Origin: Neobacillus bataviensis
Lineage (GTDB): Bacteria; Bacillota; Bacilli; Bacillales_B; DSM-18226
DNA: 64,000 nt
Direction: 5' to 3'
Assembly (NCBI RefSeq): GCF_019969725.1
Contig: NZ_JAHXYW010000016.1
Coordinates: 18,183 to 82,182, forward strand
Positions 15,567 through 63,840 of this stretch are shown here, piece after piece. Every line of letters starts with the position of its first letter. The first letter of the stretch is position 1. Made by a program: the position numbers and the translations under genes. The notes under the pieces are model-generated. The model saw only the letters and a list, made by a program, of their open reading frames with translations. It ran no database searches and was not told where the DNA came from.

Positions 15567-15619
15567 GGGACGGTTCTCATGGCTTAAATCAGATTAGTTA
15601 AGACCACAAGAACCGTCCC
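15567..15619. repeat. Palindromic repeat GGGACGGTTCT / AGAACCGTCCC, copy 1
   Basis: The arms at 15567-15577 and 15609-15619 are perfect inverted repeats, and the left arm is followed by CATGGCT. A second copy with the same arms and orientation lies at 63787-63840. It looks like a REP-like dispersed palindrome sitting inside the puc operon. Confidence 0.85.
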
Positions 15620-25330: not shown

Positions 25331-25424
25331 TACAGGAATTTCCCTAGAAAACAACTGAAAACTCTATTGAAATAACTGATTTTTCATCTTCATTTATCAA
25401 AATAGGCCTAATGGACCATAGGCG

Positions 25425-25465
25425 AATCCCCCAATTTACTTTCCACTGCCTGCATGTACAATTTG
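25425..25465 (+). promoter_or_regulatory. Shared upstream element of protease 2
   Basis: AATCCCCCAATTTACT (25425-25440) is identical to 20401-20416 and is followed by TGTACAATTTG at 25455. The surrounding sequence is not conserved, so the motif is likely functional rather than a relic of recent duplication. Confidence 0.6.
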
Positions 25466-25500
25466 AATTGTATATATTTTCAATAAAAGGAGCTGAGTTA

Positions 25501-29985: not shown

Positions 29986-30063
29986 ATGCAGTGTATGAGT
30001 TATCCGGAATTTCTTAAAAAATTGAACAATAATGAATTTAACCCGCTAAATGTTGATGATTGA
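29986..30063 (+). CDS. Possible 25-aa leader peptide before the toxin gene
   Basis: The frame begins MQCMSYPEFLKKL and ends PLNVDD, with GGTGTGA 6 nt upstream of the ATG. It stops 14 nt before the start of the TcB-TcC gene, within reach of that gene's ribosome site. It could couple translation to the toxin gene or be the remnant of a longer gene. No homologue is recognised. Confidence 0.35.
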   Translation: MQCMSYPEFLKKLNNNEFNPLNVDD

Positions 30064-30077
30064 AAGAGGTGATAAAA

Positions 30078-46700: not shown

Positions 46701-47623
46701 GAACCTGCACGATCTCCCTGCCCGAGTGGTTATTCAATATGGATTACCCCGGACATTATATGAGGCGAATCAAGTCCATTTCCGTCTCCATTCCGTGTGT
46801 AGCCGGACCATATACCAGTGTGAATTGTACGTTATCCCTAATAAAAAATGAAGTCCGTCTCAATGCAGCTTTGCCGGGCGATCAGTATCAGAAGGGAGAA
46901 GAGGATAACCGCTTTAAGACGCAATGGGGCCGGATTTCCTCCATCGCAACAAGCCATGCGCAGAACGACAGCGGTCTGTTTGAACTTAATTTCAATGATG
47001 ATCGGTACTTGCCATTTGAAGGTGCTGGTGTGATCAGCCAATGGGAGATCAACATGCCGAAGGAGAATAATTACTTTGATTTCGCAACCATCTCGGACTT
47101 GGTCTTGCATGTGCGCTACACGGCCCGTGATGGCGGAAGCGAGCTGGCCAAGAAAGGGAATGAAGCCTTACAGAGCATTCTTCCTACTTCATCCATGAGA
47201 TTGTTTAGCCTGAAGCGGGACTTTTCTTCAGAATGGTATAGGTTCTTCCATGTTACCGGGGGAGAGGATCAGGAACTGGTAATCCAACTCAAACCGGAAC
47301 ACTATCCGTTCTACCTGAGAGGAAAAATAAATACACTCAAGCTGAACAAGCTGGAGCTGTTAGTCGATAGCAACACGACAGCACATTACGAATCCATGAT
47401 GAAGGTGACCAATACGGCTTATGAGGCTGAACCAACTGGTTTTTCACCACATGCTGACATTAACAGCACGTTATATGCCCTTCGCGACTATAAAGATTCT
47501 GCGACCAAACCTCAGGCCCTCGGCGAGCTCCGAATGAAAATGAGGGTATTGGACACAGATTATAAATCGCTAAAACAAGACGATATTAATGATGTGTATC
47601 TGCTCTGCCAAGTTAGTCTATAA
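37724..47623 (+). CDS. TcA component of a Tc toxin with N-terminal peptidoglycan-binding-like repeats
   Basis: A 3,299-aa protein. Residues 10-320 hold four PG_binding_1-like repeats with the pattern (GxTTxxAhxxhQxxxxLxxTGxLxxxTL), for example GDTTVKAFKELQKQHGLPPT and GESTRQAIKKFQEQAGL. A transthyretin-like segment (about 325-435) and a VRP1 region with CQCEDCQSLYGPAAYLTDLL (about 899-918) follow. Next come a neuraminidase-like and ABC-toxin N-terminal region (about 1800-2150), a pore/coiled-coil region with a hydrophobic hairpin (about 2740-2930) and the TcB-binding domain (about 2980-3290). TcA proteins form pentameric injection channels. There is no signal peptide. GGGAGGG precedes the ATG, 101 bp after the TcB-TcC gene. 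No lysis gene is adjacent. Confidence 0.92.
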   Translation: MNKLNFKLDKITKTDISNLHAALIKLKLPIAANEMDEKLIGDTTVKAFKELQKQHGLPPTGKLTEETLGVVNRELFDRFHASSKTRAARLHRLLANLGLSVTTEEKNRRIVGESTRQAIKKFQEQAGLAQDGKITEDILDKMQQEEIKRRYSSKTQISKLQYMIQRSLKIASLPDIIAQTELKEKNIGATTTQAIKSLQTKYNLPQTGQLDKATLDRIQSIAASRGVRKPQMGKPQATELAMIKGKLRLNKVSPQVANLQRALAHLGYSISQEEYKAKKFGKTTREAVLAYQQKEVLPETGQVETLTLRSLNTTILTVNPDAALASTMLYKVCGTVRDELMQPKSNMTIKVYEKLLEGESAAPLAVKKNFLNGFFDVAYPPPIDSKTGKVKEPLHLVVKLFNEVNQQVGQPQFLYQVSQTQWVNFNMGGLYKGEPEYTEILKVLLLKLGTKKVTDLSETPVNPQVTQLGKETGLPTDYIMRMILSQLISASTKNSVLTPEVFYSFIRQQVPSTLPDDLLRATNDWKSITVLTESALTGIIFSSESLWEQMLNNAVQQNLVPATLTMSKTQIIQEFRNLKQLYTLEKPILIGDGNLKSLLAESAISLVNYNLVADLFIKHNGFNEKFWAALQTSAIGVNVAKGFEVIVNLGNISKNHIPTVRFLKSKIASQPLIYKSPSSFAKLDQQAWISLINANGKSVPADMPGADADKRVAAYAVVLQSRAEALFPSVALVAAVKRGVKHILQKLDAVAAFIDNHPDFDFKRQNIDKYLLDHPGILLDAKTIEETKLLQRVHKLVPDAITGKAVLEEGLHSSSQIYFTGKKRLTDMLAKQGVEAKQASALYEQSKLRYMQILGYLMNFRSDFHAGSPQAISKQTYTTEEIQETVGDIPDLETLFGSQDFCQCEDCQSLYGPAAYLTDLLRFLKEHDSLITRDGRVLTVKDILFDRRPDLGNIKLNSGNTETPMPYIDLVCEILENYMDPKQTSFAYQTTGDAKESRAFPQYIRPEAYDALAVADYPMDSTFNLWQEEARILLDYLKVPRVQLMEAFLDRSNSSVEMSIAAEYFGLSSYEAKMITLRVDPNQPGAIDVLQKYWGEKGKCWSPATPAFEGINVTLQEVPMSLLLKRLKLSYLELLELLQLKWLGIPQQSMAGICDLAILRVTQLNAELFDRIHRFIRLWRKTGWKMWELDLLIRNEKIGANELNSDTLIHLKQFKQLQEKLALPVEILLTFYGNINAEQRVKPDHPDQKIPPLYHRIFLNKAIINPEDSHFKLNGTLPERIDQLKLIDETLTFEASGDYTPVPTILSALAIKQSDFEILREKTDNHLSMASLSALLRYSYLARSLKLSVKDLWLLMKMTNKLDAGNHPFLSVQTTLDFIKDFEAVKRSGLTLVELDYLLTDNLASAAGLRQETMVKLITNLHNILASHEQTNERLGLDEIKTEQILTFNTDGLEGMTDEQVLSAIKPLQEILKSTDLAAEERDYIIRYNPTEGYEKKALAEHITKLQEGLKDLLDQKSKAIVAHMAAAFGLSDHQAKFLLETLELKDVKETLLKHLTDKSLPQEQLFPIYILMHKIAILVLRMKIDSQDLVYVQSNHSALDVLDLASLPIKEKASIPEFKQWFNLFQLLDFKAVYPEPEEASLLQILDQASDTNTTVADIHQSLNQMMQWNTDDLAELHAAWHLTKEDYRTSEVFARLQRSFDQMKMTGVNSKTMLVWAERDKASAQKQTARQIRLAVKSKYEQEDWLDKITPLQDILREKKRQALVAYHLEKSQRTQTQRITLNGLDIPNPLYWDDSNALFKYFLIDVEMSSCMLTSRIKQAISSIQLFVQRCFLNLENRYVQVSQDEKEDVSSENAWSQWKWMKNFRIWEANRKVFFYPENWLEPELRDDKSPFFEELENEIMQNDITHEHVEEAFFNYLHKVDDVANLEVCALYHEMEELNPHELGYEINIVHVIARTKSFPSVYYYRKYDMNYGAWSAWEKIETDITGNHIVPVIYNRKLHLFWLVFTEKPSKIRKIPPAQPTSGPKDAPEPPKILEVQLAWSVKRETGWTAKKIANRKLIHPWERPYFAYNVKPFYQSSANELWLDIYLSTSKEFNNRQFYDPYLDQFAELTGNRFHETYLPWHSASFVFDGDVKEVKLKPLNGKYHLSGPGRNVNDAVATNSYVYVNENFGEDGANITMLLDNEVRERLALPNGMHYHNTRLTNNRQEAINDHELRVLENNKTTTLLTGALPPFELVITQQDGQFNTLMNDHPFVYQDKERAFFIKPEWQRIINDKGSTYMSMEYRALPFYHPYTALFIRELNRGGLDGLLKRKIQTEPKAFLPRGVNPFSFDRYHRTSVVEPDETVQSEMVDFSFGGAYAIYNWEIFFHAPMMIACKLSQNQRFEEAMRWFHYIFDPTNIESEPSPQRYWVTKPFYQYNEADYRKQRIEQILSQLDIEENKGQLKAWRNHPFKPHLIARYRPVAYQRHVVMKYLDNLIAWGDQLFRQDTVESINEASLLYMLAYELLGPRPEQVPNVKHQDMSFNELESGLDELGNARFDVIIEDYLPPLDTVPAIDNSETLPAITTFYFCIPNNDMLLGYWDTVEDRLFKIRHCMNIDGAVRQLPLFEPPIDPPVLVKAASAGMDLSSVLADVRVATPHYRFRVVVQKAIEFCNEVRTLGEKLLSALEKKDAEGLALLRSQHEIQLLEAVKEIKQKQVDEALEAWGSLNKAYAMAQEKKSYYDDKEFMNVLETISAVLFGGSIFISGLLTYNELMASVFHLLPSFNIGISGFGGTPHTTVQWGSENIARSMQSVNSAIQHVGSLLSQSSSLIGTMAGYERRKEEWDFQARLAGIEMEQLQFSINAAQIRKEIAEKEVEHHDQQIENAKTTDEYMSYKYTNEKLYSWMITQISSVYFQAYQLAFDMAKKAEKCYQYELGIQESSYIQFGYWDSLKKGLLAGDKLMHDLRRLETAYLDENKRELEITKHISLAQVDPLSLVKLKENGTCTISLPEWLFNMDYPGHYMRRIKSISVSIPCVAGPYTSVNCTLSLIKNEVRLNAALPGDQYQKGEEDNRFKTQWGRISSIATSHAQNDSGLFELNFNDDRYLPFEGAGVISQWEINMPKENNYFDFATISDLVLHVRYTARDGGSELAKKGNEALQSILPTSSMRLFSLKRDFSSEWYRFFHVTGGEDQELVIQLKPEHYPFYLRGKINTLKLNKLELLVDSNTTAHYESMMKVTNTAYEAEPTGFSPHADINSTLYALRDYKDSATKPQALGELRMKMRVLDTDYKSLKQDDINDVYLLCQVSL

Positions 47624-49534: not shown

Positions 49535-49763
49535 ATACCTCCAATTGCGATTTACTGTAGAAAAAGTGTTTTTCAACAAAATGTACATACAAAAAAGGAT
49601 TTTCAATTCGGGAGCTTTCCTTGGTCCATAACATAGCAAGTTTATATAAAGCATATAAATGATTGCCTAGAATGTAAGTAGAATCGTAAGAATAACATCA
49701 TATGATTGTATTAATAAATTTCCCGTTTTCTGAATTACATTGTTAAAAAGAGGTGAACAACCA

Positions 49764-50576
49764 ATGAAGGTTGAGTCGTTTTTAAGTGCGGCCCCACATA
49801 AAGGTGTAAGTGAAGATTCAGTCTTATTAAATGAAAACTTAAATGTTTATGGTGTTTTTGATGGGTCTACACCACTAATACCATTTAAGGATGAAAACGG
49901 AAAGAACGGTGCATATTTAGCAGCTAATATATTTAAAGATTATTTCTTAAGACTCTACCGAAGTAACCTTTCATTAGTTGAAGGAATCGTGACAGCGAAT
50001 AGAATGCTGAGAGAACACATGAAAAAATACAAGGTGAATCAGGCAAAATATGAAAATCTTTGGTCAACATGTGTGGCTATGATAAAAATTGAAAAAGACG
50101 GCCAGATTTCTTATGCACAACTGGGTGATTGCATGATCATTGCTGAGTATCAAAACGGTATAATAAAAGCCTTAACAAGGGATACCGTAAAGGATATAAG
50201 TAAAAGAGCAAAAGTTTGGCGTGAGGAACAAAGAAAACAAGGAATTAACATACCAGGTGAGGAGTATTTTCAAGATATTACTAAACAGCTTTTATTTAAT
50301 CGATCATTGGCGAATAAGCAATATGGTTACACTGTAGCGAATGGAAAAGAAGAAGTGAGAGATTTCATTCAGCATGGTCAAGTAAATATCCGTGAAATGA
50401 AGACATTATTAATGATAACAGATGGGCTTTTTCACCCCAATCTATCAATCGAAGAAACTTTTAAAATGATTCATAGGTCTGGTATTGACGTTTATTCCCT
50501 TGAATTAGAACAATTTGAAAAAAAGAATCATCTACGTCAAGATGATAAAGCGGGGATCATGATAAGATTTGTCTAA
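49764..50576 (+). CDS. PP2C-type (PPM) protein phosphatase-like protein
   Basis: A 270-aa protein. The start is ATG 49764 (AGAGGTG 8 nt upstream), not the open TTG at 49740. Motifs of metal-dependent PP2C phosphatases are present: EDSVLLNENLNVYGVFDGST (metal Asp and DG), AQLGDCMII, LLMITDGLF and HLRQDDKAGIMI. The spacing fits a single PPM domain without a sensor. It would remove phosphate from Ser/Thr in a cytoplasmic protein. No partner kinase is nearby and the gene appears alone. The 49535-49763 stretch upstream holds no other feature I can name. Confidence 0.8.
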   Translation: MKVESFLSAAPHKGVSEDSVLLNENLNVYGVFDGSTPLIPFKDENGKNGAYLAANIFKDYFLRLYRSNLSLVEGIVTANRMLREHMKKYKVNQAKYENLWSTCVAMIKIEKDGQISYAQLGDCMIIAEYQNGIIKALTRDTVKDISKRAKVWREEQRKQGINIPGEEYFQDITKQLLFNRSLANKQYGYTVANGKEEVRDFIQHGQVNIREMKTLLMITDGLFHPNLSIEETFKMIHRSGIDVYSLELEQFEKKNHLRQDDKAGIMIRFV

Positions 50577-51897: not shown

Positions 51898-51953
51898 TTG
51901 TGAAGCAAATCGAGGAGATTAAATTAAGAAACTGAAATATGACATAAACCTTC

Positions 51954-51989
51954 CCTCAGCCCATTCATCATATGGGTTGAGGTTTTTTA
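51954..51989 (+). terminator. Intrinsic terminator before the four-gene system
   Basis: CCTCAGCCCAT and ATGGGTTGAGG pair over 11 bp (one G-T), followed by TTTTTTATT. This insulates the next operon. Confidence 0.88.
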
Positions 51990-52106
51990 TTAGTTATAGA
52001 TTTCAAGCTTGGGTCATAACCAATGGACTTCCTGTATAAAATAAAATGAACTATCAAAAAATGTAAATTTACCGTCTGTGTTGATTACTTGAAGGGAGTT
52101 CAATAA

Positions 52107-54344
52107 ATGATAGGTAAGTATAAGCAGCTTGTTGTGACGCTAATCCTGTTTATTTTTCCCTTTTTCTTCTTTACGGCAAAGGCCGATGCGAAAATGGATC
52201 CTCGAATTCCCAAAAATAAGATTGTTGCGCTTGTATATGATGATTCGGGTAGTATGTGGGAACAATCCGGAGCAAGTGGAAAACAGCCCATTGATAATTG
52301 GAAATATGCGAATTACGCTCTTCAAAGTTTCACGGCTCTTCTGGAGAAGCAGGACCAGCTAAAGGTAGTATTTATGAGTTCACCCACTGTAGCGAATCCT
52401 ATTGAATTAGATGAAAGACTACGTCAACACGAGATTGATCAAATTCGAGCATGGCAGGGAAAAAAAAACACTCCATTGGCTTCTTTACATACGGCCATAA
52501 ACGAATTGAATAAAGCGGCAGAGAATAATAGAAACTCAGATTTTTGGTTAATCGTATTAACGGACGGAATTTTTAATGAACTTAACCATCTTGACCCATC
52601 TATTCCGACCACCCAAATTGATGCAGATAAGAAGGCACTTTTCTCTAGTTTACAAGATTTGAAGACGAAGGTGGAGAAAAATGGAACCAGTATTCACACC
52701 ACCCTGATACCTATTGAGACCTATTTGAACCCTGAAGAATTATCCATCATGGCTGATTTTAAACGGCAATGGAAGGAAAGCTCAGGCGGAATTGTCTTAG
52801 AAAGCAAAGGGCAGCTGGATATTATTCAACGGATCAATGAGGTTGCTGCTCTCATGACGAATCGCGATCCAAACGAACAGGAGCAGTTTGATTTAAATCC
52901 TGTTTGGGAGGGGAATCAATTAGTCCTGAAATCGCCTTTCCCTTTAAGGAGAATTACTCTTCTTGAACAGTCAGCCGAAGAGAATGCGTCCTTTCAAATG
53001 AAGGAATTTTATATGAACAACCAACGAATTGAACAGGGTATGGAGGGGCCATTTAAAGTTAAAACCCCCGATGACCCTGCAAAATTAAATCCTCCCATTC
53101 GGGGTACCTTCACGCACTTTAAGAACGTGAATGGGGATGGTGTGATCGAAAAAGGCACTTACAAAATAGTCTTTGATAAGAAACCTACAGAAGAACAACA
53201 GAAGAATATTGAGGTAGTAGCCGAACCGGCGATTGATTTTAAAATCGGCTTCCAGAAAATCAACAGCAATGGGAGTCTGACGGAGGATCCTTCCGTTTTC
53301 TTTAAAGGCAGTAAAATGAGGGTAGAAACGACTTTGTTGAAAAGTGACAGCTCTGATGAAGAAATTGATATCCGCGATATTGATGTGGGAAGTTTGTTTG
53401 AAGTGGTAGCGAAAATAGGTCAAAACAATCTTCCCCTTAAATATGACCGTAAACTTAATAAATTCATAGGGGAGTTTACAATACCAAACAACGAAAAAAT
53501 TCCTGTAAACGTAAAGGTCAATATTAAGGGTTTCTATCAACAAGAAAAAGATACGAGCCTGCAGGTACTTCCTACTCGAAAATTGAGTTTAGTCGCCAAT
53601 ACCGATGCTTGGAGTGCACCGTTAGACAAACTAGACCAGGCACAACCGCTTGTGATCACTCCAATGGTTAATGGGGAAGAAATGACCTCAGAAGAGCTTA
53701 AGAAGATCATGAATCAACTTAAAATAGATTCACCTGGAAATATAAAAATTGAAAAGAAACAAAAAGGAAATCAGATTTACATTTATCCAAAGAGTTTATC
53801 TCCTATTTTTCGCACCTCCGTGGGGGAAGTACCTTTGCATATTACGCTTCAAGGCCAATACCCTAATGAAGTCGCCGAAGGCACTTTTACACTGACGATT
53901 GAGGATATCTCCATTTTTAAGAAATATGGCAAGGATATCATTAAGGCTCTAATCCTGCTGGCCCTTATTGTGTATTTGATTGGAATCATCATTAAACCGA
54001 GGTTTGACAAAAATCGTATTTCCATAGAATACAAGCAGAGCCGAAAAAGAGAAAAACTGCGAGAGGCACGTGTAATGACAGAGAACTTCCATACGAGCTG
54101 GGTTCAAAGATGGCTGGTGCCCTATTTAGCTGAAAAAAAGAGGATTAGTGATTTAGTATTTAAAGCGGATCGAAAGAAAGACCGGGTATTGCTAGTGAAA
54201 GAAAGCCAATACGCTGACCTGATTGTCAGACATGAAAAGCTTTTGGATAGAAGTAAAAAGGCAGACATAGCGATTTATCATAACGATGAAATCCAAATTG
54301 AGAGAAGTAACAACTTTTTGGTATACACGTTTAAATCACATTAA
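52107..54344 (+). CDS. Membrane-anchored VWA-domain protein of the tubulin-like system
   Basis: A 745-aa protein, first gene of a four-gene operon (GAAGGGAG upstream; 26 bp before the next gene). A signal peptide (residues 1-28) leads into a von Willebrand A domain with the MIDAS motif DDSGSMW (45-51) and a later VLTDGIF. Beta-rich segments fill about 280-590. A single membrane helix (KALILLALIVYLIGIII, about 612-628) leaves a cytoplasmic tail of about 115 residues. The VWA part should lie outside the membrane, where it could bind a ligand or a cell-wall partner. The tail could contact the tubulin-like protein (inference). No close family is recognised. Confidence 0.8.
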   Translation: MIGKYKQLVVTLILFIFPFFFFTAKADAKMDPRIPKNKIVALVYDDSGSMWEQSGASGKQPIDNWKYANYALQSFTALLEKQDQLKVVFMSSPTVANPIELDERLRQHEIDQIRAWQGKKNTPLASLHTAINELNKAAENNRNSDFWLIVLTDGIFNELNHLDPSIPTTQIDADKKALFSSLQDLKTKVEKNGTSIHTTLIPIETYLNPEELSIMADFKRQWKESSGGIVLESKGQLDIIQRINEVAALMTNRDPNEQEQFDLNPVWEGNQLVLKSPFPLRRITLLEQSAEENASFQMKEFYMNNQRIEQGMEGPFKVKTPDDPAKLNPPIRGTFTHFKNVNGDGVIEKGTYKIVFDKKPTEEQQKNIEVVAEPAIDFKIGFQKINSNGSLTEDPSVFFKGSKMRVETTLLKSDSSDEEIDIRDIDVGSLFEVVAKIGQNNLPLKYDRKLNKFIGEFTIPNNEKIPVNVKVNIKGFYQQEKDTSLQVLPTRKLSLVANTDAWSAPLDKLDQAQPLVITPMVNGEEMTSEELKKIMNQLKIDSPGNIKIEKKQKGNQIYIYPKSLSPIFRTSVGEVPLHITLQGQYPNEVAEGTFTLTIEDISIFKKYGKDIIKALILLALIVYLIGIIIKPRFDKNRISIEYKQSRKREKLREARVMTENFHTSWVQRWLVPYLAEKKRISDLVFKADRKKDRVLLVKESQYADLIVRHEKLLDRSKKADIAIYHNDEIQIERSNNFLVYTFKSH

Positions 54345-54370
54345 TAAATTCCTAAGAGGGGGCAGCCAGC

Positions 54371-57300
54371 ATGAGTTTTAACGTACCGACAATTTTAATC
54401 GGTTTAGGCGGCATAGGCAGTAATATTGCCAATATGGTATATGGTCGTATTCCCCCTGAGCAGAGAGGCAGAGTGGCCATCCATGCTTTTGATACGGATG
54501 CCAGCAGTATCGCCCAATTGGATCATTTGAGAAACTGTGCGACACAAACAAGCACGAACCATTCTGTTAATGAATATCTGCAAGCGAATAAAGAAGTCAT
54601 AAAATGGTTTCCCAATAATCCTCAAATAAAACGGAAAACAATGACAGATGGAGCCGGCCAGGTTCGGGCTGTTTCAAGACTCGCCTTTCGCTCAGCGATG
54701 TCTGAAGGGAAACTGAATGCTTTGTGGGACGGCATTGAACGAATATTTCCAGTGGACAGCGATTCAAGATCGTATAATGTCCGGGTGATTATTATTAGTT
54801 CTTTAGTGGGAGGAACCGGCTCCGGGATATTCTTGCAAATTGCTCTTTATTTACGGGAAATGTTGGAGCGGAAGTTAGGTTCGGAAAGTGTATTAATCCG
54901 CGGCGCATTTTTACTTCCTGATATTTTAGTAAGAAGTAATACGCTGGATCAAAATGAGTGGGAAGCCGTCCAAGGGAATGGTTACGCCAGTTTAAAAGAA
55001 CTGAACGCCATTACCTTAAGTGCATCCGGCAATCATAAGCAAAATGTGACCATCGAACTGGAGTATCGCCCCAATCAGATTGATTTAGAGGGCAGGACGG
55101 CACATGCAATTACCGATAAGCATCTTCCATATGATTTTTGCTTTCTGTTTGATTACGAAAATACGAAAGGGCAGCATTTGACAAATGTTTCCGAGTATAT
55201 GGAACAGGTGGCACGTACAGTGTATCTACAGCTCTTTAGCCCGATATCGGCAAAAAGCTTTTCACAGGAAGATAACCAAATAAGAAGCTTAGTAGAATCA
55301 AATGGGCAAGCAAGGTACTGTGGTTCTGGGGTCGCTTCCTTAACCTATCCGTATGAAGATATTTTGGATTTTTGTGCATTAAAATGGTCTGTGAATGGAC
55401 TAAATGACACGTGGCTTCGATTAGATCAGCTATTTCATGAAGAAAAAAAGCGCCATGAAGATGACGAAAGAAATGGAATCCATCATGAAAAACCATTGAT
55501 CAGAGAGCTTTATGTGAAATACTTTGATCAGATTGTGAATAACCAAGAAAAACCCAATCCATTTTTCCGTCAGCTTGATATGCAGGTTCACCAAATCGAG
55601 GATAAAGGAAAAAAGGGCTCATCGAAGGCAGATTTATTTTTACATGAGGTTGAGGAATATGCAAAAAGGGTAATCCGAGAGGATGAAGAGTTAAAAGAGG
55701 ATTATGAAGAGCATTGTAAGCTTGATGCAGGAAAACTAAAAATAAAAGATCAAGCAAAACAAGAAATAAACCGGATGGAAGCAGCTTTGGAAGACTATGC
55801 CAAAGAGATTAACAAGAAAATCAATGAAAATAGTCATTTCATTGCCTACCAGGTAATAGATTCTGATTATCATTCGCCAAATGGCGGGGACGGAAGTAGA
55901 TTTCATTTAAACACGTGGTTACTGAAAGAGGAATCACCCATTCATCCGGTAGGAGTACGGTATATCCTTTATAGCATTCACAATAAATTGATTAAGAAAA
56001 TTTCCAGTTTAAGAGAAGAGAATCGTCTATTGAAGGAGCAGATGAATCGATATCAAGACATTTATGATTTAGACCGCAATGATGGTGACGTAGACGATGC
56101 AGTCCGCCGCGTTGATAAAGCCTTGAAGCAAGGTTTCCTTTCCAGTATGTTTAGAAATAACTTTAAAGATTTTATCAATGAATATACGGAGAAGGCCACG
56201 CATCAGTTTAATACACTGAACCGTTATAAATATTCGATGCTGTTAGAACAAGTCTTTTCAGCTCTCAATCAATCCATTAAGGAAATGATCGGGGATTGGC
56301 AACGATTCTTTGACAATTTAATGGAGACAAAAGAAACACTCACAGGTGAGATTCATCAATTGGCCAGGAAGTTTGAGGGTGTCAGTGACCCGACGAAAAC
56401 CTTCGTTCTGGCAGATAAGGAAATGCTGGAACAAACCTGGGAGCGGATTCGTCAATCAGTGGATAATGGGTATTTACCAGAGGGTATCTCTCAAAAAATT
56501 TATTTAAGTCTTTATAACCGATTCATCGAGCGGAAAAATAATCGCGGGTCAGAAGAATTTTATAAGGAAACTAAGGTTGAAGAGTTTTTTAAAGAAAATG
56601 TGGTGGCTTTTTGCCGGCAGGAATTGGCGAATAAGCATCAGGACAAATTGGATTTAACCATTATTCAAGCATTAAGGATAGAAGCGGGCCGATTAGGAAA
56701 GGATGCGGACGATTACCTTTATCGCAAGATTAAGGCGATTGAGGAGCTTGCTCAACCGTTTGTTCCTATCACGAGTCATTATCGAAGCTTGAAGTTCTGG
56801 GGACTCCATTCTGAAAGCTTTAATCTACTCAGTGAGATGGAAAAGAACGAGTTATTTAATGATAAGCAAATTGTTGAAAATGCGTTTGAACGGAATGAAA
56901 TCGTTTGTTATCGTGCTCATTATGGATTATCGGTCAGTGACTTTAGCAAATTTTCTTCGGGAAAAAATGGGAAGCCGCCAGGAGTTTATTATGAGGCCTA
57001 TCATCGTTTAGTGAACAAGCTGAATGAGGATGAAAATCGCACGATTACGCCTCACCTGGATCGAAATTGGCATCTTCCTGCCTATATGCCCGACTTAAAT
57101 CCAGAACGGGCCGAGCTTGAAACCAATCGTACGGACCGAGCGTTAATCCTTGGGGTGATCTATGGGTGGCTCCAGCTAGTCAACTCAGATGGGAAAAGAG
57201 TCTATCAATATAGTGGAAATCAGGGCACAAAATTATTACTGAAATTCGGTGAAAAGGTGGAAGAAGATACGTTTTTGCTTCATGAAGCCTTACCGCATAA

Positions 57301-57730
57301 TCCTGTCATCTATGATGAAATTTTAGAAAGATTCCAAGAAACGCAGGAAAATCAAATAAAAAATAATCGAAATATAGAAGAACACGATTTTATGCTGGGT
57401 GCTTTAGAAATCTCAAAAGTAAAAAAAGAAGGAATCAGAAATATTCTAGATTTGGTGTTGGCTTATGATCTGGAATTTATCTCCGATCCTTCCTTAACGG
57501 TAAGGGCTGATCGGTTACGACAATGTTTGTTAAATGAAATCGTAGAATACTTTATGAAGGTTATGAAACCGGACTCAGCTAAACGGGAAGCGGCGAAGTT
57601 GATTAAACGGCTCTGGGCTGAATCACTTGTTAGATATAAAACAGCCCAAGATACAGAAGAGTTTAACAAGTGGATGAATGATATTAATCATAAAATGAGT
57701 TCATTAAATCAAGAACAAGTATTTGTATAA
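54371..57730 (+). CDS. Tubulin/FtsZ-like GTPase-domain protein
   Basis: A 1,119-aa protein, about three times the size of FtsZ. The N-terminal 330 residues show the tubulin-superfamily nucleotide fold: ILIGLGGIGSNIAN (8-21) in place of the FtsZ first glycine loop, FDTDASS near 38, and SSLVGGTGSGIFLQIAL (about 142-158) matching the tubulin signature GGGTGSG with one Gly missing. It fits the Tubulin_2-type family. The remaining 750 residues are mostly helical with coiled-coil stretches (about 440-480, 530-570) and no known domain. There is no signal peptide or membrane helix. It is translated in an operon with the VWA protein and two membrane proteins, so it probably assembles at the membrane. 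Confidence 0.82.
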   Translation: MSFNVPTILIGLGGIGSNIANMVYGRIPPEQRGRVAIHAFDTDASSIAQLDHLRNCATQTSTNHSVNEYLQANKEVIKWFPNNPQIKRKTMTDGAGQVRAVSRLAFRSAMSEGKLNALWDGIERIFPVDSDSRSYNVRVIIISSLVGGTGSGIFLQIALYLREMLERKLGSESVLIRGAFLLPDILVRSNTLDQNEWEAVQGNGYASLKELNAITLSASGNHKQNVTIELEYRPNQIDLEGRTAHAITDKHLPYDFCFLFDYENTKGQHLTNVSEYMEQVARTVYLQLFSPISAKSFSQEDNQIRSLVESNGQARYCGSGVASLTYPYEDILDFCALKWSVNGLNDTWLRLDQLFHEEKKRHEDDERNGIHHEKPLIRELYVKYFDQIVNNQEKPNPFFRQLDMQVHQIEDKGKKGSSKADLFLHEVEEYAKRVIREDEELKEDYEEHCKLDAGKLKIKDQAKQEINRMEAALEDYAKEINKKINENSHFIAYQVIDSDYHSPNGGDGSRFHLNTWLLKEESPIHPVGVRYILYSIHNKLIKKISSLREENRLLKEQMNRYQDIYDLDRNDGDVDDAVRRVDKALKQGFLSSMFRNNFKDFINEYTEKATHQFNTLNRYKYSMLLEQVFSALNQSIKEMIGDWQRFFDNLMETKETLTGEIHQLARKFEGVSDPTKTFVLADKEMLEQTWERIRQSVDNGYLPEGISQKIYLSLYNRFIERKNNRGSEEFYKETKVEEFFKENVVAFCRQELANKHQDKLDLTIIQALRIEAGRLGKDADDYLYRKIKAIEELAQPFVPITSHYRSLKFWGLHSESFNLLSEMEKNELFNDKQIVENAFERNEIVCYRAHYGLSVSDFSKFSSGKNGKPPGVYYEAYHRLVNKLNEDENRTITPHLDRNWHLPAYMPDLNPERAELETNRTDRALILGVIYGWLQLVNSDGKRVYQYSGNQGTKLLLKFGEKVEEDTFLLHEALPHNPVIYDEILERFQETQENQIKNNRNIEEHDFMLGALEISKVKKEGIRNILDLVLAYDLEFISDPSLTVRADRLRQCLLNEIVEYFMKVMKPDSAKREAAKLIKRLWAESLVRYKTAQDTEEFNKWMNDINHKMSSLNQEQVFV

Positions 57731-57755
57731 GCTTGTGAAAAAGGACTGATTCTTG

Positions 57756-59921
57756 ATGCACTCCATTGTGATACATTTCGGCAAGAAGTATGAAGATTGG
57801 CATCTAGTTGAGCCATTTTTTTATAAGCTGCAGAATCATAACGAAGTAATCTTTTACTGGGAGGAGGACTCCTCCTCTCAACCTCTCTATTCCTTATTAA
57901 TGGATAGAATGATTGAACATTTAGACCGTCTTCGAATAAAGGATTGGCAGTTGATTATTCTCCTGAATCTAAATGATGAACGAAATCGACATTTACGTTT
58001 AACGACGCAGCTATCAGAAATGAGGAGAGAACTACTTACACCTTTAAAGGATAAAGGTTTTTATCCTCTTCAAACCATTTTACATTTAGTTGACATGATC
58101 AAAAGAAATTCTCATTACGCACCAAACGAGGTAGAGTTAAAAAGGTGTTGGGAGCTGGATCATTTTGGCTTTCTTGTATCAGACCAACTAGCTTTTGGAA
58201 TGGGCAATGCCTTTACGAAACAGGAAATAAACAAGCTGGATGAAGAGTGGGGGGACACCATCCAGCTTCAAGACATTGTTTTAGACCAACCCGATCATGA
58301 ATTCATGTTAGCTTTAAAAGCTAAATGTGACCGGGTGAGAAGCTGTCTAAAACAGTTGATCAGTCGAAAAAAGGAGCTTTTGGTGAATCTAGGAGAGGTT
58401 CAGGCTCATGATTATTGGATGACCTCGCGGCAGCTCGAGATTGTGTTGGAAGATTTTAAGAATAAGATAAAGCAATTGATGACGCCCCCTTTGACACAAA
58501 CGTTAACGAACTTCTCGCCATCAAAAGAGCTTTCAAGCAGTTTGAAGTTCCATGTGGGAATCCAAAGTGAAATCGGTGATATTCGGTTAATTCGTCAAGA
58601 AATTGACCAAAGCTCTCAGCGGGAAAGAATGAAAGGATATTTGGAACTCGCTTATTTCCTTCTGACCATATGCCACCATCCGTCCCTTATTGAAAGGATG
58701 GACAAGGGAAGTGCGAGTGTGATCCAGGTGACGTTAGAAGAGGAGCGTTTACAGAAATTACTAAAAAATTATTATAGCAATTTGGTAAAGGTGAAAAAGC
58801 AAATAAAGGATCAACTATTACTCCAAAACCAGTTTCATACCAATCGATTTCGGGATGATGAATTTGCCCCATACACGGCAGCAGCGATTGAAAAGAAAAG
58901 GGATTTCAATCCACCACTCTCGAAACATTCCAAGATTACGTATCATTTCTTCGACCAATGGGAAGATCAGCTTTATAAAGCAGAAACCATCCTCATGGAT
59001 CGTGAAAGGGAGCTTCTTCAAAAATCAAGAGAAGCCCTCAAAAAATTGAATGTATTAAAACGGAAAAATGAATTTTTGGAAGAGGAAGAATGGATTGAGA
59101 TTAATGATTATAAACAGGAATTGGTTGAAAAGATGAGTCTTGTGCACCAACAGGTAATCGACACAGCGCCTTCTTCGTCAGAAGCTCTTTCTACCTGGAA
59201 AAATCATGTGCCCGGAGCGAAAAAGAAGATGCATTTTCTCCTGGAATTGATTCCTAGCCAGCGCCAGTACCAGACGATGGGGGCACTCATTTTTTTAATC
59301 TTAATCCTTCCGTTCCTGCATCTGTGGGCAGCCACCACATCTCAGAGAGGATGGACATTCCATTTTACGATAGTCTTTGTTGTGATCCTTGCTGTTACCT
59401 GCCTGGGGTATATTTTAACAAAACGAACTTCCCATCGGCCGATTTGGAAATTTCAAGAACAAACCTATGAGCACATCGAAAAAATCTATCAAATGCAAGT
59501 GAATTCCCAGCATCAATACAATCATTACCTGAACCAGTTATTCAAGCTTTTTTCGTTACGAAAGTATCACGAAAGAGTATCCAGCATTGCAGAAGAGAAG
59601 AAGGAACAGAATCTGCTGCATCGCTATCACCTTATTAAATTAGAAGAATTTGCTCATATGGCAAACCGATTGCTTCATATTCTGCAAATGAATATCGAAC
59701 AGGACACGTCTAATAAAGAACGTAGTGTTCCAGTGATGAAAATGGAAAAGAGTGTAAACGAGAATCCTATTTATTCACCCTTTCAGCAGGCGGGCTTGCA
59801 GGAAGCTGGGGGAAATGGGATCGAAGTATATCTTGGCAGTGCTATTGAACAATATCAATCAACCTATTTTAATGAAATTGATCAAATTCGGATCCAAGAG
59901 GATAAGGTGTATAAACTATGA
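57756..59921 (+). CDS. Coiled-coil protein with two membrane helices, tubulin-like system
   Basis: A 721-aa protein of unknown family, third gene of the operon. It starts at ATG 57756 with AAGGA about 10 nt upstream. The N-terminal 130 residues are alpha/beta (VIHFGKKYEDWHLVEPFFY, WQLIILLNLND). A long helical region with coiled coils follows (about 180-490). Two membrane helices (about 508-525 and 538-557) are joined by a short loop, and a helical C-terminus (about 565-720) follows. Both large parts should face the cytoplasm. It overlaps the next gene by 4 nt. It may anchor the tubulin-like protein to the membrane (inference). Confidence 0.75.
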   Translation: MHSIVIHFGKKYEDWHLVEPFFYKLQNHNEVIFYWEEDSSSQPLYSLLMDRMIEHLDRLRIKDWQLIILLNLNDERNRHLRLTTQLSEMRRELLTPLKDKGFYPLQTILHLVDMIKRNSHYAPNEVELKRCWELDHFGFLVSDQLAFGMGNAFTKQEINKLDEEWGDTIQLQDIVLDQPDHEFMLALKAKCDRVRSCLKQLISRKKELLVNLGEVQAHDYWMTSRQLEIVLEDFKNKIKQLMTPPLTQTLTNFSPSKELSSSLKFHVGIQSEIGDIRLIRQEIDQSSQRERMKGYLELAYFLLTICHHPSLIERMDKGSASVIQVTLEEERLQKLLKNYYSNLVKVKKQIKDQLLLQNQFHTNRFRDDEFAPYTAAAIEKKRDFNPPLSKHSKITYHFFDQWEDQLYKAETILMDRERELLQKSREALKKLNVLKRKNEFLEEEEWIEINDYKQELVEKMSLVHQQVIDTAPSSSEALSTWKNHVPGAKKKMHFLLELIPSQRQYQTMGALIFLILILPFLHLWAATTSQRGWTFHFTIVFVVILAVTCLGYILTKRTSHRPIWKFQEQTYEHIEKIYQMQVNSQHQYNHYLNQLFKLFSLRKYHERVSSIAEEKKEQNLLHRYHLIKLEEFAHMANRLLHILQMNIEQDTSNKERSVPVMKMEKSVNENPIYSPFQQAGLQEAGGNGIEVYLGSAIEQYQSTYFNEIDQIRIQEDKVYKL

Positions 59922-62900
59922 ACTTACTTGCATTATTGTTAGGAAGTCTAGTCGTCTTTGTGATCAGTTTCATCCTCCTTTACACGGCAAATTTATCTCA
60001 GGAACAGCGTTATAAACAACTTTTGCTCCCGGCCGCAGCCCTATTCACTTCCTTACCTTTACTTCTATTCGATGATAGTCTCACTCGTTTTTATGAAATA
60101 TTTCTTGATAAACAGATGTCTAATTTAATACCGTATATTCAGCTGCTAATCAATCTTTCGTTTCTGCTTGCGTTTCTGTTTGTAAAATGGTGTTGGAGAA
60201 TGGTGGGGAGACTGTCTTTTAACTCCCTTGGAACAAAGACAAAAACGTACCGCTGGTTAAGCTGGATTGACACACTTCCGAAAAAAGCCAAAGCCATCTT
60301 CTATCCAGAAGATCTCGTAAATAGAACCAAAACAAAGCTATTTGCGCCGGGAACTGTTTCGCTGGTGTATATCAAAAGCCGGGGACAGATCCTTTTGAAA
60401 AAAGAATGGACGTATCTTTCATGGTTTTTCAAATATGCTAGTATCTTCCCAATGGTTTTACTGGTGCTCCTTATAATTGCCAGTGTATATCATTTATCGT
60501 TGATTCAGAATTTGCCTAAATATCCGATTATCTCCATTGTTCTGTTGATGGAGATTGCCTGGTTCTTAAATGGGCGAAAGGCTGCTTATCGTGAAGGCTT
60601 CATCGAGGGGAACGATGCCATCCCAACAAGGCTTGCCACCTATGAGGAGTTATTTAAACAATACAAGGAATTATGGGAAGACGGCTTGCTGGCGGATGGA
60701 ATCATAAAAGAAAATAAGCTTTTCCCTCATCGAACCAATCATTTTTCTTATGAAAATCTCTCGTCAGATCCGGAGCATCAATTGATTATGAATGCCATTT
60801 GTGAGGGAATAAAGAAAAAGAACTTGATCATCGATGAGAGTTATACGAGGATGATGCTAGAAATCATCCAAGAACAAGATGTGTTGATTGAGGATGTCAT
60901 CTACGAGGATTTCTCTTCCTATTTTTTTCCGGCATTGTACCATTTGCTGACGCAAAATAAGAAGATCTTGATTATTGCCCATAGCCACCATGCTGCTGAG
61001 GAAGCTGTGGTATGGCTAACGAATGGAATTAGCGAAGTGGCCGGGATCGATCAAGTATGGAAGGTAAGCACTTTTTTAGATGCCCTCGAGCAAAACATCA
61101 ATTCCGATGTTTTAGTGGTTTCACCTGATATTTTGCAGGAGAACCGATTCTTGCAATACTTAAGCCAGTTAGAAAAAACAAAGAGATTGGAAGGCATAAT
61201 GCTATTACAGGCGGAAAAACTGATTCCAACCTATTCCACCATTCTGCATGCGTTTAACTTGAATGTAAGGGAGCTAATTGGCAAAAAACCGCAGTATATC
61301 ATTTTAACGGAGTGGTATGAAGGATTAGAGCCTGCCATCCGTACAGTCTTGCAATGCGAGCCAAGAGATCTCGTCGCCTCCTCGAGCATAAGTCAAAATT
61401 TACTCTATATGGTTTGGAAAAAAGAAGGAGAACATATATTTCAGCAAACCATCCTTCCGAAGATGTCGCACCGACAAATAGAAGCGGAAGTGGTATTATC
61501 CTTGCCAGCTATAAAGGCAAATATTGAACCCGTTCACTTCATCCATCAGCGGAAGACCACAGTGAATGAGAGCATACAGGAAATCATGGATGCGAAGTCG
61601 GCGTTATTTGAGCTTGGATTTGATTTAGATACATTGGACCATTTTTTAAAAAGGATGAGAATCCATGAACAAAATCTTTCCATTCCGAGTGATGATTTCT
61701 CCTTTCTGCTCATTCGAGACCATCACTACAATTTAGTGGATCGTTTGAATATGTGGAAAGGTGCCGGCAAAATGGCTTCCTTTGTGCATATCGTATCGCC
61801 GCCCTATTTAATTCGGGATTATTTAGCAAACCAGTTGGAGTTTTTTATGAGCACCAATCGGACTATTGCTCCATTGGCTCCACGGTTATCTCAATCGGTT
61901 TGGAGCATTGCCTATTACCTTTTGGAGCGGTTATGTCATTTTTACCTGAACGAAGAAGAAATAGAGAACTACCTAAGGAAAGCGAAGATCAATTCCTACC
62001 GCTCAATGGTAGAAGGTGTTCACGAGTTGTTCTCGATCGCTTTTGGTCCTAAATTGGATTACCGATTGAATATCGAATCTAGAGAGTTAGTAAGGTTCGA
62101 CCGCACGAAAAGGGATTTTGTAAGGCAGACCCAATTTCGGATTCCATATACAGCTAAGGAAAAGATTTTACCAAGAGGGTTCCGTTTTATTGAAATAAGG
62201 CATAACAACAAGTGCATTTCGGAGATTTATGAAGGGCATTTTTTTCAACAATACCTGCCAAGTCAATTTCATTCCTTTAATGGCGAACTTTACAAAATCC
62301 AAAAGGTGGATCTAGAGCATGGAGTCGTGGAAGTCAGCTTTGAACCGCTTTTTGAGCAGAAATATTACCGTCCTACAATGGAGTATCAAATACGTAAGTT
62401 GACAGAAACAGGCTGCTATGAAAATAAAACCATTTCATATGAGCGGGTGGAGGTCAGCATTCGAGAAATGCAGGCGGATGTCAGAGTTCGCACATGCGGC
62501 TATGTGGAATTAAGTCAAATGTTGAATCTAAAATCGATGAAGCTTCATTCCTTCCATCAAGATGAGGAGATAATAAGGGAGTATGAGAACGGCCATCTAC
62601 TAAGAATGGCGATTCGTTCAAAAGAGGGAACCATTCTAAACCCGGCTCAGATTAAATTTACGCTCGCATTATTATTGAATGAGTTGTTTTTGTCCTTATT
62701 TCCGGAAACACATCATTTTGTGAAGGTTTGTACCCGATTAGATGGTTCCTTTTTTGATGAGACAGACACCATATCTAAAAAGTTACAACTGATTACGCCA
62801 TCATTACGGATGGATGGTGAAACGAAAGACGAGGGACAGATCATCATATACATTATAGAGGATTCTCCTGTCCACCTTGGAATTTTAGAAGCGATTCGCG

Positions 62901-63763
62901 ATAATTGGGAAAAAATCTTTGATATTCTGAATGACTATTTGTATTGGTTATCAAATGAAAGTAACGGTACTAGTTGTTACCTTCATTTTGGTTATGACAG
63001 GTATCCAACAGAACTTGCCTTACGAGAAACCTATTTAATGATCGATGAGCTGTTAACAAGGAAAAAACTACGGGAAGTGCGAACAGAATATCTCGGACGT
63101 TTACAAGATAGTGACAACCTAAAAATGAGTGGCGGCGTTACTCAATGCGTGTTCTGTGGAAATGTGTTTTCATCTTCTCAAGTTCATCAACTCAGTGATG
63201 GCAGGCAAAGATGCTTTACTTGCAATGAGTCAGCTATTGACGATGTTTTACAGGTTGAGCCTCTCTATAACCAAGTTCGTCAATTATTCACTGAATTATA
63301 TCTAGTGCCTTTGCCAGCAGATATCGAGGTTTCGGTGCTAAGTGCTGCAGAGATCCACAAAATAAGCGGCTTACCTTTTATTCCAGAAGCGGGGCAGCCT
63401 CGTTTAACCGGTAAAGCAAGCATGGATGTTCATGGTAAGCTTAAAGTTTTAGTAGAAAATGGGTCGCCAAAAATATATACGCTCGCTACTTTAGCCCACG
63501 AACTGACCCATATTTGGCAGTTTGAAAATTTAGAGATGGAAAAGCTAACGCATGAAGAGATTGAAGGATTTGCCTCATGGGTCGAAGTACACATGATGAC
63601 CCATCTGGGAGAAATCCCTTACGCCAACCTGCTCAAACAACAACTCCTAAACCGGCAAGATGAATACGGCAAAGGGTACCGTCTCATCCTTGAAAAATTA
63701 GCCAGACAATCAGATACTGCCAATCCGTTTGAATTGTATGCTGCTGAGGAGGTTGGGATGTAA
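59918..63763 (+). CDS. Membrane protein: degenerate SF2-helicase-like core plus DA1-like LIM-peptidase
   Basis: A 1,281-aa protein, last gene of the operon. Five hydrophobic segments lie at about 2-25, 36-52, 70-93, 175-198 and 205-222. A region arranged like an SF2 helicase follows: ILIIAHSHHAAEEAVVWL (about 350-367), VLVVSPDIL, then LLQAEKL where a DExx box would be, and a second RecA-like half (HIVSPPYLIRDYLA, about 624-637). Walker A is not recognisable. After a DUF1998-like segment comes a CxxC...DGR..CxxC finger (CVFC, LSDGRQRCFTC, SAIDD, about 1077-1109). A zinc-peptidase motif, AHELTHIW (about 1193-1200), with a downstream EEIEGF completes the module. Finger plus peptidase follow the pattern of plant DA1. 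Peptidase activity is likely; helicase activity is not. Confidence 0.8.
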   Translation: MNLLALLLGSLVVFVISFILLYTANLSQEQRYKQLLLPAAALFTSLPLLLFDDSLTRFYEIFLDKQMSNLIPYIQLLINLSFLLAFLFVKWCWRMVGRLSFNSLGTKTKTYRWLSWIDTLPKKAKAIFYPEDLVNRTKTKLFAPGTVSLVYIKSRGQILLKKEWTYLSWFFKYASIFPMVLLVLLIIASVYHLSLIQNLPKYPIISIVLLMEIAWFLNGRKAAYREGFIEGNDAIPTRLATYEELFKQYKELWEDGLLADGIIKENKLFPHRTNHFSYENLSSDPEHQLIMNAICEGIKKKNLIIDESYTRMMLEIIQEQDVLIEDVIYEDFSSYFFPALYHLLTQNKKILIIAHSHHAAEEAVVWLTNGISEVAGIDQVWKVSTFLDALEQNINSDVLVVSPDILQENRFLQYLSQLEKTKRLEGIMLLQAEKLIPTYSTILHAFNLNVRELIGKKPQYIILTEWYEGLEPAIRTVLQCEPRDLVASSSISQNLLYMVWKKEGEHIFQQTILPKMSHRQIEAEVVLSLPAIKANIEPVHFIHQRKTTVNESIQEIMDAKSALFELGFDLDTLDHFLKRMRIHEQNLSIPSDDFSFLLIRDHHYNLVDRLNMWKGAGKMASFVHIVSPPYLIRDYLANQLEFFMSTNRTIAPLAPRLSQSVWSIAYYLLERLCHFYLNEEEIENYLRKAKINSYRSMVEGVHELFSIAFGPKLDYRLNIESRELVRFDRTKRDFVRQTQFRIPYTAKEKILPRGFRFIEIRHNNKCISEIYEGHFFQQYLPSQFHSFNGELYKIQKVDLEHGVVEVSFEPLFEQKYYRPTMEYQIRKLTETGCYENKTISYERVEVSIREMQADVRVRTCGYVELSQMLNLKSMKLHSFHQDEEIIREYENGHLLRMAIRSKEGTILNPAQIKFTLALLLNELFLSLFPETHHFVKVCTRLDGSFFDETDTISKKLQLITPSLRMDGETKDEGQIIIYIIEDSPVHLGILEAIRDNWEKIFDILNDYLYWLSNESNGTSCYLHFGYDRYPTELALRETYLMIDELLTRKKLREVRTEYLGRLQDSDNLKMSGGVTQCVFCGNVFSSSQVHQLSDGRQRCFTCNESAIDDVLQVEPLYNQVRQLFTELYLVPLPADIEVSVLSAAEIHKISGLPFIPEAGQPRLTGKASMDVHGKLKVLVENGSPKIYTLATLAHELTHIWQFENLEMEKLTHEEIEGFASWVEVHMMTHLGEIPYANLLKQQLLNRQDEYGKGYRLILEKLARQSDTANPFELYAAEEVGM

Positions 63764-63786
63764 AAGATTTCACAGGAGATTCCACA

Positions 63787-63840
63787 GGGACGGTTCTCAT
63801 GGCTCAAAATATGTTTGGTGCAGACCAGAAGAACCGTCCC
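63787..63840. repeat. Palindromic repeat GGGACGGTTCT / AGAACCGTCCC, copy 2
   Basis: Arms at 63787-63797 and 63830-63840, the same as the copy at 15567. CATGGCT follows the left arm in both, and the central parts differ. It lies 24 bp after the last gene of the tubulin-like operon and could act as its terminator-like hairpin. Confidence 0.85.

Follow-up and report, generated by a model that had tools for sequence, protein, structure and literature searches.

In a 64,000-nucleotide stretch of the Neobacillus bataviensis genome (contig NZ_JAHXYW010000016.1; hereafter the window), four consecutive genes, named VWA, TUB, CC and PEP in their order, formed a unit that was conserved across bacterial phyla. 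The unit places a VWA protein and a Tubulin_2 protein next to two membrane proteins, one of which (PEP) combines a YprA/MrfA-type helicase fold lacking the ATPase motifs with an exchangeable protease end. We consider this anatomy and its conservation firm. An initial annotation, made from the sequence alone, had read the four genes as one unit, and in other genomes they were indeed kept together, with the order retained across phyla. The helicase fold and the exchangeability of the protease end had both been missed.

Conservation of the four-gene unit

All four open reading frames (ORFs) were on the + strand: VWA at 52107–54344 (745 aa), TUB at 54371–57730 (1119 aa), CC from 57753 (TTG start) or 57756 (ATG start) to 59921 (722 or 721 aa) and PEP at 59918–63763 (1281 aa). 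VWA and TUB were separated by 26 nt and TUB and CC by 25 nt (22 nt from the TTG), and CC overlapped PEP by 4 nt, in agreement with the strand, gaps and overlap annotated initially. Compared with the nearest relative, locus L001, the dN/dS ratios were 0.096 (VWA), 0.024 (TUB), 0.133 (CC) and 0.152 (PEP). Since all four were under purifying selection, we regard them as real genes. TUB was 98–99% identical to proteins of 'Paenibacillus sp. BSR1-1', Neobacillus sp. NRS-1170 and N. drentensis; in the PEP tree, the BSR1-1 copy, which is L001, grouped with Neobacillus-like loci.

When GTDB species genomes were scanned with a TUB alignment, 63 loci were obtained, and iterated profiles were then applied to them. 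TUB and PEP were on one stretch in 43 of these, and the gene order VWA-TUB-CC-PEP recurred in other phyla. VWA preceded TUB in all 36 of the 43 loci that reached far enough (as a fragment only in L015 and L045); the other seven (L010, L034, L038, L051, L054, L056 and L057), in which TUB starts less than 180 bases from the contig end, were uninformative on VWA. Between TUB and PEP, each of the 43 loci had one ORF of 565–814 aa (split in L015). This ORF was matched by the CC profile at E ≤ 0.01 in 32 loci, in some of them weakly (L043, 1e-3; L048, 2e-3), and was identified as CC by position alone in 11.

PEP was not beside TUB in the remaining 20 loci: L013, L014, L016 and L030; L017 and L040; L062; and 13 from Bacteroidota. 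The contigs of L017 and L040 ended within or soon after TUB, and L017 and L010 belonged to one metagenome-assembled genome. L062 had a distant TUB, and no CC or PEP was recognised in the following 10 kb. Several of the Bacteroidota loci were on short contigs; for six of the 13 the whole genome was searched, and PEP was found elsewhere in five (G007–G010 and G013) and not in G012. CC adjoined PEP in three of these five genomes (L070, L072 and L073) and was not seen in L071 and L074.

The co-occurrence of TUB and PEP was also apparent at closer range. In the family of G001 (193 genomes), nine genomes had PEP, and a close TUB (E 0 to 1e-238) occurred in exactly these nine; 30 further genomes had a distant Tubulin_2 relative only. 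The order of G002 (397 genomes) contained PEP in eight, plus one match to an 88-aa frame; the eight loci (L006, L012, L015 and L106–L110) each held all four genes, broken in L015. The trees of TUB and of PEP without its C-terminal part, built from the window and 35 loci, had 26 of 33 splits in common (r = 0.92, a value that none of 2000 permutations reached); the trees were built quickly, several of their branches are long and some deep forks are weak. Eight of the 43 loci were omitted from them, as one protein was shorter than 1000 aa.

At the DNA level, the matches of the window to L002, L003, L004, L007 and L008 started at 52054–52090 and stopped at 63763, the end of PEP. L005 matched over 52058–63700 and L006 in pieces only. 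The match to L001 was slightly longer (51947–63839), and its left neighbour region was set off by approximately 6.5 kb absent from the window. Genes to the left of the unit in the window also occurred at other places in the genus, for the most part as separate matches. The neighbours thus vary, and the unit itself is retained.

Architecture of the encoded proteins

Residues 1–220 of PEP (59918–60577, + strand) formed the membrane part according to hydropathy, with three transmembrane (TM) segments above the threshold in the window protein and five in 9 of 15 relatives. PEP is membrane-anchored, with its body predicted inside the cell. Structure predictions were made for CC and PEP, and residues 240–1046 of PEP (60635–63055, + strand) had a fold of the MrfA type (YprA family). 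The SF2 ATPase motifs (P-loop, DExx and QxxGRxGR) were missing at the matching places in all 38 PEP rows; stray GxGKT words (L025 and L046) and DEAD or DECD words (L041, L042, L046 and L060) fell elsewhere in the protein. A sequence search of solved structures with the PEP profile returned no convincing chain. A zinc ribbon of the form CxFC...CxxC (residues 1077–1102; 63146–63223, + strand) followed, and its conserved cysteines 1077, 1080, 1099 and 1102, compared with the four-cysteine cluster of DUF1998, fell just past the MrfA-aligned part.

The C-terminal part of PEP contained a metallopeptidase pattern, HELTHIW...EG (residues 1194–1217; 63497–63568, + strand). HExxHxW was present in 33 of 41 complete PEP C-termini (the window and 40 loci; 32 of 40 without the window), the incomplete C-termini of L025, L027 and L035 being excluded, and the EG of the gluzincin pattern was found in 24 of 24 HExxH-bearing rows. 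The initial label of the peptidase, DA1-like, was right in part. The domain had the gluzincin pattern, but at E ≤ 0.05 the 24 peptidase rows matched DUF6782 in 23 cases, BSP in 19, Peptidase_M1 in 10 and DA1-like in four (best 7.5e-4). DA1-like was not among the matches of the window protein at this threshold, whose Pfam peptidase matches were all below the curated Pfam cut-offs. Against solved structures, the peptidase profile alone matched M1 aminopeptidases (best E = 0.0014). A search with PF12315 in 60 genomes gave no match, likewise for the controls, and was hence uninformative on DA1.

Among the eight PEP C-termini without HExxHxW, six (L048, L050, L052, L053, L058 and L063) carried a transglutaminase-like domain in which the Cys, His and Asp motifs were present (PF01841 in 6 of 33 rows, best 2.4e-10). 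As 33 of 41 C-termini had HExxHxW and six of the remaining eight were transglutaminase-like, an enzymatic end of PEP seems to matter. In L043 and L044, HExxH was intact and a separate transglutaminase-like gene (L043:19434–20462; L044:12496–13527), whose relatives are fused to PEP in the six other loci, lay 12 and 4 nt behind PEP, respectively.

TUB matched PF13809 (Tubulin_2) with E = 1.4e-63 and PF00091 with E = 2.4e-5, the latter under its curated cut-off, which substantiated the initial assignment of this protein to the tubulin superfamily. The profile match covered residues 8–342 only. TUB had the loops GLGGIGS and GGTGSG; all 39 rows kept GxGGxG, and 38 of the 39 kept GGTG. The long C-terminal part contained PHLDRNWH (residues 893–901; window 57047–57073), conserved as PHLDxxWH in 39 of 39 rows. 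In a sequence search of solved structures, the TUB profile found no convincing chain, not even tubulin. Judged from its sequence, TUB is a Tubulin_2 protein retaining the nucleotide-binding motifs of tubulin and FtsZ.

The VWA protein had an N-terminal signal or TM segment (residues ~8–26), a VWA domain with DDSGSM predicted to be extracytoplasmic (residues ~40–199) and a second TM segment (residues 611–629), followed by a tail predicted to be cytosolic; both membrane segments were located by hydropathy. By itself, the domain of the window protein gave a weak Pfam match (E = 0.02). A profile from 31 relatives matched the VWA domain of inter-alpha-trypsin inhibitor heavy chain H1 (E = 6.8e-6), DxSxS was kept in 29 of 31 rows (with a gap there in two) and the later D-G in 31 of 31. 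The profile match and the DxSxS conservation back the extracytoplasmic VWA domain annotated initially, its outside location being a prediction. The domain is of the MIDAS type. Two or three consecutive genes matching the VWA profile preceded TUB in L039, L047, L049 and L061.

CC (57756–59921, + strand) was predicted to consist of an alpha/beta N-terminal part and long helices, with two TM segments by hydropathy (residues 508–526 and 537–555). The predicted structure of the 722-aa version from TTG was good (pLDDT 83.8). No known fold was matched with confidence, and a profile search of solved structures returned no convincing chain. The predicted TM segments of CC and PEP are in line with the two membrane proteins already recognised beside VWA and TUB.

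Comparison with described systems and proposed role

Loci of FtsZ-like family 1 with vWA genes were described by Makarova and Koonin in 2010, who proposed membrane remodelling (PMC2875224). As the initial annotation had suggested, the unit is related to these: TUB is a Tubulin_2 protein, and the vWA gene that it adjoins encodes signal and TM segments. In the same article, a Bacillus vWA protein that belongs to this context is mentioned by a reviewer. Unlike those loci, the unit is without a GTPase, kinase or OmpA gene; neither its four proteins nor the two preceding ORFs of the + strand had a Pfam match to a P-loop GTPase or protein kinase. CC and PEP are not named in the part of the 2010 text covered, and unnamed families in its additional files may include them (PMC2875224). 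The GAP1-N2 GTPase systems of Kaur et al. 2020, who described tubulin/vWA loci with GAP1 GTPases (PMC7159879), likewise combine, in firmicutes, tubulin-domain proteins with an extracellular vWA. However, as far as that article was covered, the unit differs from them in that no GAP1-type GTPase, second tubulin or YtkA-vWA was seen, the only GTPase match being the tubulin. The vWA-MoxR-VMAP conflict systems treated in the same source swap trypsin-, caspase- and transglutaminase-like peptidases (PMC7159879). The unit similarly pairs a vWA with an exchangeable peptidase end, transglutaminase-like included, but has a tubulin-family protein and no AAA+ (MoxR) match.

In the fold of residues 240–1046, PEP resembles the YprA/MrfA (DUF1998) helicases of MrfAB, DISARM, Dpd, Druantia and ARMADA; it differs in the loss of ATPase motifs, in its membrane anchor, in ending in a protease and not a nuclease, and in its partners. 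YprA helicases are central to defence by DISARM, Dpd and Druantia according to a 2025 survey, in whose main text, so far as covered, no word begins with tubulin, vwa, transmembrane or peptidase (PMC12458937). HExxHxW...EG is shared with the DA1, BSP, DUF6782 and M1 gluzincins, from which PEP is set apart by the pseudo-helicase on which the domain sits and by Pfam scores under the curated cut-offs. No publication describing all four parts together was among the matches listed, in a coverage that lies mostly outside the subscription literature. Within the literature covered, the unit therefore extends the FtsZ-like family 1/vWA loci by a membrane pseudo-helicase/protease that was found nowhere described.

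A link to defence was sought in 128 flanking ORFs from 24 of the 63 loci (130 were chosen and two dropped for size). The sole recurrent defence match was a CARF-HEPN protein of the Csm6/Csx1 type (best E = 1.2e-134). Its gene directly followed PEP in L009 (12121–13599), L011 (19458–20954) and L012 (19515–20972), with gaps of 188, 50 and 157 nt, and directly preceded VWA in L109 (1–933). Pfam found the Csm6 HEPN domain in both CARF-HEPN proteins scanned. This neighbourhood is suggestive of a role in defence. One-off defence matches, among the matches listed, were to IetA, IetS, mad2, mad3, AriA, PD-T4-2_B, a subtilase and PDC-M51A. The partner proteins of DISARM, ARMADA and Druantia had no PADLOC match better than E = 0.37 in the unit. 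A 2023 CRISPR survey reports, in the part covered, that vWA systems, of this or another kind, lie near CRISPR loci together with tubulin-domain proteins (PMC10910872). Regular repeats in six sequences were judged by eye to be tandem repeats and not CRISPR arrays.

We tentatively favour, with rather less than even confidence, a membrane complex that couples signalling to proteolysis, composed of an outside vWA, a tubulin-family scaffold, a dead helicase platform and a protease output. The VWA domain would bind a metal-dependent ligand or partner outside the cell, and the signal would pass to TUB, which, held in place by CC, may assemble at the inner membrane face using GTP. TUB assembly would then alter the pseudo-helicase platform of PEP, which would license the enzyme at its C-terminus, protease or transglutaminase-like, to cleave or modify proteins in the cytosol, with defence or dormancy as the outcome. 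This mechanism is favoured because the gene order is kept over phyla, PEP and TUB co-occur in the same nine of 193 genomes and their trees are congruent. Conflict, in the form of attack by phages or competitors, is the likeliest setting, given the patchy presence of the unit (9 of 193 genomes; 8 of 397 plus a fragment), the homology ending at its ends in the Neobacillus loci and the CARF-HEPN neighbours. By analogy, the peptidase-swapping vWA-MoxR-VMAP systems and the YprA helicases in defence may be parallels, as far as these sources were covered (PMC7159879, PMC12458937). Possible, but doubtful, is the more specific version of an immune or stress signalosome, in which a vWA receptor would act through a tubulin-family GTPase scaffold on a membrane-bound dead YprA/MrfA helicase, the sensor or switch for exchangeable protease effectors, joined in some lineages by a Csm6-type RNase. 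If so, no earlier case is known to us in which a helicase of the YprA family has become a regulator of proteolysis at the membrane.

Several observations weigh against the signalling-to-proteolysis mechanism and its defence setting. VWA-TUB occurred without PEP anywhere in the genome in L013, L014, L016 and L030; with these four genomes and a fifth having TUB without PEP, proteolysis is not needed everywhere. The PEP proteins of the five Bacteroidota genomes with PEP elsewhere (G007–G010 and G013) ended earlier, without zinc ribbon and peptidase, and those of L045 and L047 had neither HExxH nor transglutaminase. An Azospirillum plasmid (L087; NZ_CP029832.1) carried, next to one another and in this order, TUB, a gene for a 710-aa protein, one for a PEP-like protein of 1123 aa that lacked the peptidase, and VWA; the CC profile did not match the 710-aa protein. 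In the TUB tree, the six transglutaminase-type loci grouped as a single clade (support 73). The PEP tree required two changes for them, though one origin may fit it too, so that the swap was probably one exchange rather than many. The separate transglutaminase-like protein of L043 and L044 may act outside the cell, because its start, judged by eye, is lipoprotein-like. The CARF-HEPN neighbour was missing from most loci, and among the four of 397 genomes in the order with a strong CARF-HEPN match, two had PEP and two did not. PADLOC gave nothing better than E = 0.37 for the four proteins of the unit. Lastly, the copies in L002–L004 and L010 were near ordinary metabolic genes (LeuA and PRPP synthetase).

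The 2010 proposal offers a rather unlikely alternative, a membrane-remodelling or vesicle machine in which TUB filaments would shape the membrane, VWA would serve as outside anchor, CC and PEP would regulate and the peptidase would help dismantle the filament. TUB belongs to the family for which remodelling was proposed, all partners are membrane proteins and VWA-TUB was found without PEP. Yet the exchange of protease types, the helicase fold and the CARF-HEPN neighbour are left unexplained, and the proposal, in the text covered, was built on gene context alone and doubted by its own reviewer (PMC2875224). Envelope stress or protein quality control, with no phage link, is an unlikely explanation: VWA would sense envelope damage and PEP remove cytosolic or membrane proteins. 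A sensor outside with a protease held at the membrane, the dN/dS ratios of the four genes (all well below 1) and the metabolic neighbours of L002–L004 and L010 fit such a function, for which patchy presence would be unusual and which does not account for CARF-HEPN neighbours at four loci.

It is distinctly unlikely that nucleic acids and not VWA trigger the protease, with the dead helicase still binding DNA or RNA, such as the DNA of a phage as it enters at the membrane. The MrfA-type fold would be compatible with this, and YprA relatives are reported, in the part of the survey covered, to act on DNA in defence (PMC12458937). The loss of ATPase motifs in 38 of 38 rows argues against it. A function in sporulation or germination is very improbable: the host lineage is spore-forming, but the unit was also present in Bacteroidota, in Desulfobacca and, with another gene order, on the Azospirillum plasmid, and PEP was missing from 184 of the 193 genomes of the G001 family.

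As described in 2010, in the part covered, FtsZ-like family 1/vWA loci had no tested function; they are now tied, over several phyla, to two more proteins. One of these, a dead helicase whose family has known members in phage defence, has an exchangeable protease end that provides a testable output, protein cleavage. This suggests that tubulin-family proteins serve bacterial signalling complexes, beyond division and plasmid partition.

Carriers and surroundings of the unit

TUB relatives occurred on seven plasmid records, all with less than 60% identity, and one of them (Azospirillum) covered 84% of the query; a further relative was on one unverified 'phage' scaffold. A TAXI/TRAP solute-binding gene adjoined the unit of this plasmid (L087); a TRAP protein beside FtsZl1 in Polaromonas is mentioned by a reviewer of the 2010 paper, in the part covered (PMC2875224). 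No TUB relative was confirmed in viral contigs. L088 (MT836542.1), filed as 'Bacteriophage sp.', had VWA and TUB genes of the unit's kind and may be a bacterial contig.

Ahead of the unit, in the gap 5' of VWA, a terminator-like hairpin (51954–51982, + strand; 11 pairs, six of them G-C, then TTTTTT) had the highest pair count in the hairpin list. It matches the upstream terminator noted initially, though hairpins of this type were in no excess in the window (12 vs 11.2 expected from shuffles). A PP2C-type phosphatase gene (49740–50576; PF13672, E = 2.8e-9), with a Nudix gene of the opposite strand between it and the unit, was rejected as a fifth part, with no phmmer relative in the ORFs of the first 63 loci. 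The gene directly 5' of VWA in L002 (6649–7467), L003 (6722–7549) and L004 (6291–7535) had Cys motifs at both ends and looked AddB/Cas4-like by eye; the L003 copy had no Pfam match. The 6.5 kb on the left of L001 contained a gene (L001:1237–3315), absent from the window, whose product contains a very long run of threonines.

Short inverted-repeat elements with GGGACGGTTCT in both orientations were located at 15567–15619 and 63787–63840, the second directly 3' of the unit, as in L001. This sequence had five matches with at most one mismatch in the window, compared with 0.54 expected, and our guess is that the elements are REP-like. Elsewhere in the window, two large subtilases with weak dockerin matches and two long ORFs (2520 and 3299 aa) occupied 20496–24629, 25411–29574, 30060–37622 and 37724–47623, and a biopterin-dependent aromatic amino acid hydroxylase-like gene was found near a cytochrome P450 gene (10138–11853 and 12610–13815).

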